Origin: a virus
Strand: one strand, 5' to 3'
IMG/VR virus record: IMGVR_UViG_3300023174_005350
Coordinates: 1 to 64,000 of that record
Length of the DNA: 64,000 nt
A model generated the notes under the pieces. The model was not told the origin of the DNA. It saw only the letters and a program-made list of their open reading frames with translations, and did no database searches. The position numbers and the translations under genes are program-made. The first letter of the stretch is position 1, and every line of letters begins with the position of its first letter. Shown here piece by piece: positions 3,050 through 16,782 of this stretch.

Positions 3050-3109
3050 TTGCCCCTGTCAAGGGGGTGGTGGTTGGCTAAATAAAAAAAATAAAAGCCT
3101 CCCACCCCC

Positions 3110-3205
3110 TTGACGAATATCCACAGGTATGGTAAACTAGCCGCCTCGTTCCTCGGCGGGAGGCTGGGACACCTATATTATATCACGGGTGGATAGGTAG
3201 CGCAA
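3110..3205. promoter_or_regulatory. palindromic module E with face-to-face promoters
   Basis: Forward: TTGACG (3110-3115), 17 nt, TAAACT (3133-3138). Palindrome CCGCC (3141-3145)/GGCGG (3155-3159), with flanking AGCC/GGCT. Reverse: ATTATA (3177-3182), 17 nt, GCGCAA (3200-3205), i.e. TTGCGC-17-TATAAT. The -10 hexamers are 38 bp apart. Confidence 0.65.
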
Positions 3206-15260: not shown

Positions 15261-15633
15261 AATAAAACAATATAAAGATAATACATGTAAAGATTATTCT
15301 ATCTCTAAATTATTAAGAGAGCAAAAAAAAAGTAATGATCTTTTTGAAACAATGCTTTGTAATATAAGTCTTGAAGATATAATAGCATTAAGACTAGAGT
15401 TGGCTTATAAATCAATTGGCGTAAGATTATATGGCTTTCCAATATGGAGAAGCACTAATTATATTGTTCAAGAAGCTTTATTAAAGTATGCAGTATCTAT
15501 AAGTACTTCTAAAGGTGAAGCGGCTAGATATCTTGGATTAAATGTTGATAAATTTATTAAATTTCTAAAAAAATATAAAATAGATACTTATTTTAAGAGG
15601 AAAGTAAATGCTGATCACCGAAACACAACTTAA
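15232..15633 (+). CDS. HTH-like protein of unknown function (133 aa)
   Basis: Central segment YGFPIWRSTNYIVQEALLKYAV followed by KGEAARYLGLNVDKFIKFLKKY, which reads as a Fis/sigma-like helix-turn-helix, so DNA binding is plausible. Overlaps both neighbours (29 and 26 nt), consistent with a tight operon leading into the endolysin. Confidence 0.5.
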   Translation: MTVLKTHLSKIKQYKDNTCKDYSISKLLREQKKSNDLFETMLCNISLEDIIALRLELAYKSIGVRLYGFPIWRSTNYIVQEALLKYAVSISTSKGEAARYLGLNVDKFIKFLKKYKIDTYFKRKVNADHRNTT

Positions 15634-16183
15634 AAAGATTTATCCTAATATAAAAAAAGATAAACTAGAATTATATGTTAAAGCTTTTAATAATGTTTTT
15701 CCTTCCTATGGCATCAATACCTCTAGACGGATTGCTGCTTTTCTTGGACAAGTTGGGGTCGAAAGCGGAGAACTCAAATACGACAAAGAACTAGCATCAA
15801 AATATAATAAAAAAGATCCTAGTAATCGATTTGAATCCGTTGGAACTTTATACGAAGGAAGAAAGAATTTAGGTAATACACAAGTTGGTGACGGTCCTAA
15901 ATTTATTGGTCGTGGCATTCTCCAATTAACTGGAAGAGCTAACTATGAAAGCATGTCTAAAATACTAGGAATTGATTTAGTTAATAATCCTGAATTAGCA
16001 TGTGATCCAGAAATAAGTACTAAAATTGCTTGTGAATATTTTAAAAAACGTGGATTATTAGAATTAGCTGACGAATGGAATCTTGATGAAATTACTCGTA
16101 GAGTTAATGGTAATGCAAAATTACATCACGATATAAGAGTTAAATATAGTGAGGCTGCTTTGAAAGTTTTAGATATTAAATAG
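15608..16183 (+). CDS. GH19-type endolysin (191 aa)
   Basis: Glycoside hydrolase family 19 fold: FLGQVGVESGEL with catalytic-type E52, then GDGPKFIGRGILQLTGRANY at about residues 94-113, and RRVNGNAKLH near the C-terminus. Family members in phages hydrolyse peptidoglycan and act as endolysins. No signal peptide, so export needs a holin, not identified here. AGAGGAAAG precedes the ATG. The predicted structured RNA begins right at the stop codon. Confidence 0.85.
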   Translation: MLITETQLKKIYPNIKKDKLELYVKAFNNVFPSYGINTSRRIAAFLGQVGVESGELKYDKELASKYNKKDPSNRFESVGTLYEGRKNLGNTQVGDGPKFIGRGILQLTGRANYESMSKILGIDLVNNPELACDPEISTKIACEYFKKRGLLELADEWNLDEITRRVNGNAKLHHDIRVKYSEAALKVLDIK

Positions 16184-16497
16184 TTAATATTAGGTAGTTG
16201 GCTTAAAAGTAGCAATCTTTAATGAGTGAGACAAAATCCTTGGCTAGTAGATATATGTCCGTTAACAGCGGGGAGTTAAGTGTAGTTTGCCCGAAGAAAG
16301 CGCAACAAAACCCGAAGATAGTTGCGTAGACAACAAGCTGATAGGTAAGCTCCAATATATCATAAATCTTGGGGGTTGGGTAATAGGAAAGTCAGATTCG
16401 TTTGATGGGACAGAAATAAACTTAAGATATAATCATTGAAAAGATTGTATTGTTTACTTCCTCCCTCTCTTTGGTGTAGTAACACGCCTAATATTGA
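16184..16497 (+). ncRNA. candidate structured non-coding RNA (about 314 nt)
   Basis: No gene fits in this stretch, yet it is G-richer than its surroundings and folds: 16184-16194 pairs with 16487-16497 (11 bp, one G-U), closing the whole element; 16250-16256 pairs with 16355-16361 (7 bp); just inside it are a hairpin 16259-16261/16269-16271 and a helix 16272-16277/16348-16353, forming a junction; 16301-16306 pairs with 16321-16326 (6 bp). 16365-16370 may pair with 16441-16446. No known RNA class is recognised. A self-contained RNA or a long leader of the gene at 16513 are both possible. Confidence 0.55.
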
Positions 16498-16512: not shown

Positions 16513-16782
16513 ATGAAAAAAATTAAAATTGGCAAATGGAATTATAGAGTTTTTAAAACTATTAAATCTAATGGCTTAGAAGAATATGGAATAGTCGAAG
16601 TATATTATGATACTAAAGACAATCCAGCCAGTTATACTGATTATCAGATTCCTTGGGGAGAATCTTTAAAAGATTTGAAATGGGAACTTTCTTCTATGTT
16701 AAAATCCTGTAGACAAGATGTATTAACAGAAGAAGATTTTAAACCGAGAAAAAAGAATGCAAGAAAAAAAATGGAAAGATGA
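16513..16782 (+). CDS. small phage protein of unknown function (89 aa)
   Basis: IGKWNYRVFKT...EYGIVEVYYDTKDNPASYTD...LKDLKWELSSML: a beta-beta-alpha pattern with basic tail (RKKNARKKMER). Known as a conserved type in large phages without assigned role. First gene after the structured-RNA region. Confidence 0.6.
   Translation: MKKIKIGKWNYRVFKTIKSNGLEEYGIVEVYYDTKDNPASYTDYQIPWGESLKDLKWELSSMLKSCRQDVLTEEDFKPRKKNARKKMER

Follow-up and report, generated by a model that had tools for sequence, protein, structure and literature searches.

A viral DNA stretch of 64,000 nucleotides (IMG/VR record IMGVR_UViG_3300023174_005350, positions 1 to 64,000; hereafter the window) carries a structured RNA whose two ends, judged by sequence comparison, together rebuild a domain of ribosomal RNA, and this RNA belongs to a family that is very widespread in phages, among them many large phages that otherwise have little in common. 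The structured RNA, located at 16184-16497, had been proposed in an earlier sequence-only reading and is confirmed here by comparative analysis; its ribosomal likeness and its spread lay beyond the view of that reading. The domain is the GTPase-associated centre (GAC), or L11/thiostrepton domain, which comprises H43 and H44 and spans about positions 1047-1112 of E. coli 23S rRNA. On computational evidence, the likeness to the GAC in sequence, secondary structure and tertiary fold is almost certain.

The structured RNA and its locus

The sequence-only reading had described a gap behind the endolysin gene (15608-16183), G-richer than its surroundings, closed by an 11-bp helix and devoid of any reading frame of note. 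This description holds. The gap runs from the endolysin stop (16183) to the ATG at 16513, where a small gene adjoining the candidate RNA begins; it contains 22.6% G compared with 17.3% in the window, is overlapped by short ORFs only (50 aa), and includes the closing helix 16184-16194/16487-16497, which shows compensatory changes across relatives. A junction drawn at 16250-16277 with 16348-16361 is backed by the relatives in part, with some compensatory changes; of 11 sequences, 6-10 can form helix P3 (16250-16255/16356-16361) and 8-11 the P3 base (16271-16273/16351-16353). Another helix, 16301-16306/16321-16326, displays clear compensatory changes and is absent from the minimum-energy fold. 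The folding energy of the window RNA as a single sequence (z = -1.9; 3 of 100 shuffles equally good) is only mildly beyond chance, so energy alone is insufficient and the comparative evidence decides. Strong covariation was found among homologues, and Rfam searches with the window, its relatives and the named phages matched no known family, which together uphold the claim of a new structured RNA. Its parts are as follows.

16184-16497, plus strand: whole RNA, a GAC-like core with an inserted arm; kept in relatives at the same locus and the best place in the window for the phage-only covariance model
16184-16194, plus strand: P1 5' strand (end of H42; rRNA register G1055-C1104), complementary to 16487-16497
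16195-16218, plus strand: H43-like hairpin (23S about 1057-1081), from alignment to E. coli 23S 1054-1088 and covariation of 1057-1081 and 1058-1080; A1067 corresponds to 16205 and U1072 to 16210
16219-16227, plus strand: J43/44 and the H44 5' strand (to position 1090), conserved UUUAAUGAGU / UUUAAAGAGU; 1082-1086 covaries in the family
16228-16231, plus strand: P2 5' strand, foot of the inserted arm; GAGA pairs with UCUC at 16466-16469, with family-wide covariation
16232-16465, plus strand: inserted arm, lineage-specific; helices 16259-16263/16267-16271 and 16301-16306/16321-16326 supported, 16250-16255/16356-16361 partly
16466-16469, plus strand: P2 3' strand, pairing with 16228-16231
16470-16473, plus strand: UUUG linker from arm to H44 (UUUG in 156 of 176 representatives)
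16474-16485, plus strand: H44 end (23S 1091-1102) with loop GUAGUA; G1091-C1100 invariant, 1092-1099 in a triple with 1072; U1092 corresponds to 16475 and A1099 to 16482
16487-16497, plus strand: P1 3' strand, complementary to 16184-16194

Related phages were gathered from IMG/VR by endolysin and ClpP-like protein queries. Most relatives with the same slot carry the RNA, about 67-90% identical, and insertion of tRNA or other genes on either side has not displaced it. A tmRNA takes the place of the RNA in L011 and L013 (4856-5144 and 4575-4869, respectively), and the phages of L011 and L012 have the RNA at another site (L059 and L060). A tmRNA lies just upstream of the RNA in L009 (4563-4908), L035 (2311-2600), L048 (6844-7132) and L051 (271-560, minus strand). 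This locus is a genome region for translation-related RNAs. The tags of the relatives' tmRNAs include ANDDVDSEFYALAA and VNDDVEFESYALAA.

Correspondence of the core to the GTPase-associated centre

Four motif scans of IMG/VR yielded further loci, and named isolates were found by short queries. The resulting family set is motif-gathered rather than a census; after removal of duplicates it comprises at least 198 distinct RNAs, of which at least 176 remain as representatives at a limit of about 85% identity. Conservation at the 5' end (GUAGGCUUAGAAGUAGCCAUC..UUUAAAGAGU where best preserved) corresponds to H43/H44 in 23S rRNA; at the 3' end the conserved stretch, GGUGUNRNAACAC or GGCGUNRNAGCAC, matches the last portion of H44 including the GUAAUA loop. 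Of the members tested singly, most have their best local match in the whole of E. coli 23S at 1054-1088. The window RNA alone scores 39 against E. coli 23S, with 40 for the best shuffle, so its identity as a GAC rests on the family.

A covariance model was built from 40 phage cores, leaving out the insert and including no rRNA. When E. coli 23S is searched with this phage-only model, positions 1047-1112 match over the full length of the model (69.2 bits, E 2.9e-18), and the next match in that search reaches 12 bits; the E-values are rough, given a short calibration. The window RNA is its best place in the 64 kb despite the insert (25.5 bits, E 1e-4), and the model places the RNA in 25 of 27 whole phage records, which had been chosen for carrying the motif. 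Its second-best place in the window, 3058-3114 on the minus strand (15.8 bits, E 0.06), is without the H44 part and is probably a chance match. With the GAP32 RNA as BLASTN query, 5375 of 5426 complete E. coli genomes gave matches, at a median of seven places each, and ten out of ten among the matches listed are 23S rRNA. The same kind of search with a short member gave no match in E. coli genomes; the GAP32 RNA is longer and closer to 23S.

In the 40-sequence alignment 91.7% of the cells are paired, and the covariation score is 0.568 versus 0.177 in shuffles (reached in 0 of 500; because shuffling takes no account of relatedness, the figures should not be read as probabilities). With the partners shifted by 1-3 columns, the score falls to 0.09-0.18. 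The sequence of P1 varies in nearly every member and that of P2 also varies, with complementarity kept in both. At the base of H43, 1057-1081 pairs in 150 of 152 members (permuted maximum 127) and 1058-1080 in 151 of 152, with four Watson-Crick types (permuted maximum 82). Of the 152 members, 133 have U-A, C-G or A-U at the tertiary pair 1082-1086, against a permuted maximum of 100. Positions 1060 and 1088, a further tertiary pair, are U and A in all 152, A1084 and G1091-C1100 are likewise invariant, and 1087-1102 has changed from G-C to A-U in two members.

Conn, Gutell and Draper (1998) reportedly described that position 1072 of rRNA covaries with 1092-1099 as C(C-G) or U(U-A). Among the 176 representatives this triple is C(C-G) in 128, U(U-A) in 46 and U(U-G) in two, with no violations. 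The motif scans had fixed one end of the RNA or the other, and the triple was therefore checked end against end: where the 5' end was picked with U1072 the 3' pair is U-A (31) or U-G (2), and where it was picked with C1072 the 3' pair is C-G in 93 of 93. The rule also holds where no pattern had fixed the 5' end (63 members) or the 3' end (47 members). One apparent exception, in L053, has ends 463 nt apart and spans a U-type RNA of the same contig, which terminates 175 bases ahead of the C-type 3' end; most simply, the ends of two copies were paired. Related inserts occur in ME3, of the U type, and GAP32, of the C type, which indicates that the switch between types arose within one lineage.

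The window member belongs to a class in which J43/44 is one base shorter. The shorter form accompanies G1103 (16 of 21, versus A1103 in 146 of 152 otherwise) and also GUA or GUG before 1059, a correlated change at the three-way junction.

The phage core thus has in common with the 23S GAC (H43/H44, E. coli 1051-1108) its sequence, the P1, H43 and H44 pairs in register, the triple 1072/(1092-1099), the 1082-1086 pair, and the invariant U1060, A1084, A1085, A1088, U1094 and A1098. It differs in being a free-standing gene, in an unconserved P1 sequence, in a relaxed A1067 and in the arm at 1090/1091; the uninterrupted H44 strand 1087-1102 of the 23S GAC is absent in all phage members, which have an arm of 23-365 nt there. 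These features bear on the idea that the RNA is a captured, functionless scrap of host 23S rRNA, or contamination. Genuine 23S rRNA, uninterrupted, does occur in deposited phage records, such as MZ092003 (Pd_22F) and the short records OR845016, OR847528 and KM209255, where it is most likely host contamination. The family, however, has its own signature in the arm at 1090/1091 and the UUUG linker. In complete isolate genomes the RNA is flanked by phage genes, and its covariation attests to selection, so that this idea is refuted for the family and retains a negligible probability. Membership in a full-length LSU rRNA is ruled out by the flanking phage and tRNA genes and by the lack of any LSU match in the Rfam search.

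The inserted arm and the genomic surroundings

The arm lies between 1090 and 1091 in every member and measures 23-365 nt (median 150). The linker on its 3' side is UUUG in 156 of the 176 representatives, UUUA in 16, UUCG in three and UUCA in one. The common insertion point and linker point to one origin, for which capture of the GAC from rRNA is the simplest story that we infer. In the window's group, helices P2 and P5 of the arm are supported, P3 partly, and conserved motifs occur; the consensus fold of the insert shows little covariation there, so the fold of the insert is settled only in part. An insert motif close to CACCCCGGARACGGUAAGGCUGAA just before the P2 3' strand marks a sub-family (pf16, UNO-G1W1, 4_4572, Astolliot, Milchi, L083, L091 and L109), and a second sub-family has ACCCUUAGAG before the P2 3' strand (ME3, GAP32, CBB, L069, L081 and L103).

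The core is constant while the inserts span 23 to 365 nt, from which it follows that the shared function lies in the core. The large arm could carry the main function. In a rival reading, the GAC fold would be a rigid scaffold or dock for a non-ribosomal phage or host protein, with the arm as the active part and the likeness to rRNA due to descent only. In keeping with a scaffold, every phage group conserves a long arm of its own, and the family as a whole keeps to one insertion point (1090/1091) and to the UUUG linker. Against this, arms are wholly unlike between groups and shrink to 23-50 nt with the core retained, and we regard a scaffold as quite improbable.

The RNA often sits in tRNA/tmRNA clusters. 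Named isolates that carry it include pf16, GAP32, CBB, Serratia BF, 4_4572, ME3 and Astolliot; in pf16 it is located between tRNA-Asn and tRNA-Pro, with a predicted length of about 190 nt. The annotated neighbours are tRNAs in pf16, UNO-G1W1, Astolliot, Milchi and 4_4572, and unrelated genes in GAP32, CBB, Vibrio 2.275 and XacN1; in the isolate records the RNA itself is unannotated, or overlapped by a hypothetical-protein call only. Two GAC-like RNAs lie close together in L297, L204, L053 and Astolliot (L144); in Astolliot one RNA is of the C type, and the one directly upstream of it has the U-A form at its 3' end. When isolate phages and plasmids were searched by BLAST with the window RNA, there were only short chance matches or none, because the insert and P1 diverge. 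Among GTDB contigs, 24 exact matches to the U-type 3' motif were found, none with the GAC part upstream, and for the U type there is therefore no sign of cellular copies.

The tRNA-cluster context and the changing neighbours suggest that the RNA is very probably a trans-acting small RNA and not an mRNA leader. A cis-acting element, whether leader, processing site or terminator of the tRNA or endolysin transcripts, would agree with the frequent position of the RNA between tRNA genes or just before a small same-strand gene. Yet the neighbours on both sides differ between phages, and no terminator-like site was found. Leaders of ribosomal protein operons (L1, L10, S15, L20 and others) do mimic rRNA, acting in cis, and like them the phage RNA is a non-rRNA molecule that imitates the binding site of a ribosomal protein. 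Those leaders, however, are parts of the mRNA of the very protein that binds, preceding its gene, whereas the phage RNA moves between loci; the L11 gene was found in 0 of 25 RNA-carrying phage records (controls 14 of 14 positive), the neighbours vary, and no Rfam leader matched. Ribosomal-protein leaders were rejected on these grounds, and we consider any cis-acting role highly improbable.

Phage RNAs already known were compared as well. ROOL and GOLLD are also large structured phage RNAs, often near tRNA genes (PMC12286853); the GAC-like RNA differs in its rRNA-domain core and did not match their Rfam covariance models. T4 RNAs C and D and phage tmRNA resemble it as stable phage RNAs at a like locus, with tmRNA in the very slot in L011 and L013. 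GAC and family motifs are at noise level in rnaC and rnaD. ARAGORN and Rfam were negative for tmRNA at the locus and positive for the neighbours' tmRNAs, and the window RNA has neither a tRNA-like part nor a tag reading frame. Inspection by eye gave no support for a group I intron, RNase P or tmRNA. That phages supply tRNAs, tmRNA and a few ribosomal proteins is established, but a free-standing RNA copy of a functional rRNA domain, present in many phage groups, appears to be undescribed, and our search of published open-access papers found no description of a GAC-like phage RNA.

Possible roles of the RNA

We favour, by a modest degree, the proposal that this stand-alone phage RNA with GAC-copying ends is a trans decoy for host uL11. 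Its ends, by the comparative evidence, fold as a copy of the GAC (H43/H44), with the arm inserted in H44 between 1090 and 1091, and the RNA would act in trans by binding the host ribosomal protein uL11, which would thereby be drawn off ribosomes or assembling 50S subunits. L11-poor ribosomes would respond weakly to RelA and to some factors, and a weak RelA response would suit a phage that needs ongoing translation in a starving host.

The H43/H44 fold kept in the phage RNA is the L11-binding fold. Together with the lack of an L11 gene in the 25 phage records tested, its retention argues for host L11 as the natural partner, and L11 is probably the protein bound. The consequences downstream are more speculative: drawing on known ribosome biology, it is possible that ribosomes hold less L11 and that the stringent response is dampened or the action of factors changed. 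Ribosomes that lack L11 are relaxed (relC). Thiostrepton bound at the GAC blocks activation of RelA (PMC5829649).

The GAC mimic may instead, or in addition, bind translational GTPases such as EF-G or another factor; as a factor decoy it would then slow host translation or redirect it. Its fold is that of the factor-binding centre, and the title of a paper cited in PMC5829649 (Munishkin and Wool 1997) reports that EF-G binds oligoribonucleotides which mimic the thiostrepton domain. A1095, which is A in 160 of 176 representatives, is mostly kept, so some factor-facing constraint may remain. A-site tRNA and thiostrepton both make contact with A1067. The A/R tRNA stacks on A1067, which also determines thiostrepton resistance (PMC5829649). 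This key contact of the factor site is A in 33 and not A in 18 of the 51 members gathered without 5'-pattern selection, while the buried tertiary residues U1060, A1084 and A1088 are kept in 51 of 51. The relaxed A1067 makes it less credible that the RNA serves mainly as a decoy for factors or antibiotics, and a factor decoy appears unlikely.

A bL12-like protein over the Pfam cut-off is present in three of the 25 RNA-carrying records (G009, G013 and UNO-G1W1 PP551948), a presence that would also agree with a factor decoy. Such proteins fit an interest in the stalk that is not general, and a link to the RNA is possible.

Returning to the uL11 decoy, its broader form would be a widespread, undescribed class of trans-acting phage RNA that mimics a ribosome centre, recruits or titrates uL11 or factors, and thereby changes how host ribosomes work or weakens (p)ppGpp signalling, with the lineage-specific arm supplying a second, phage-specific activity; we hold the chances of this wider picture to be evenly balanced. 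The family offers a concrete, testable RNA for phage takeover of translation in culturable phages, such as the P. putida phage pf16, and, for a classic RNA tertiary fold, a collection of naturally occurring GAC variants. It would also account for otherwise empty gaps in the tRNA clusters of many large phages.
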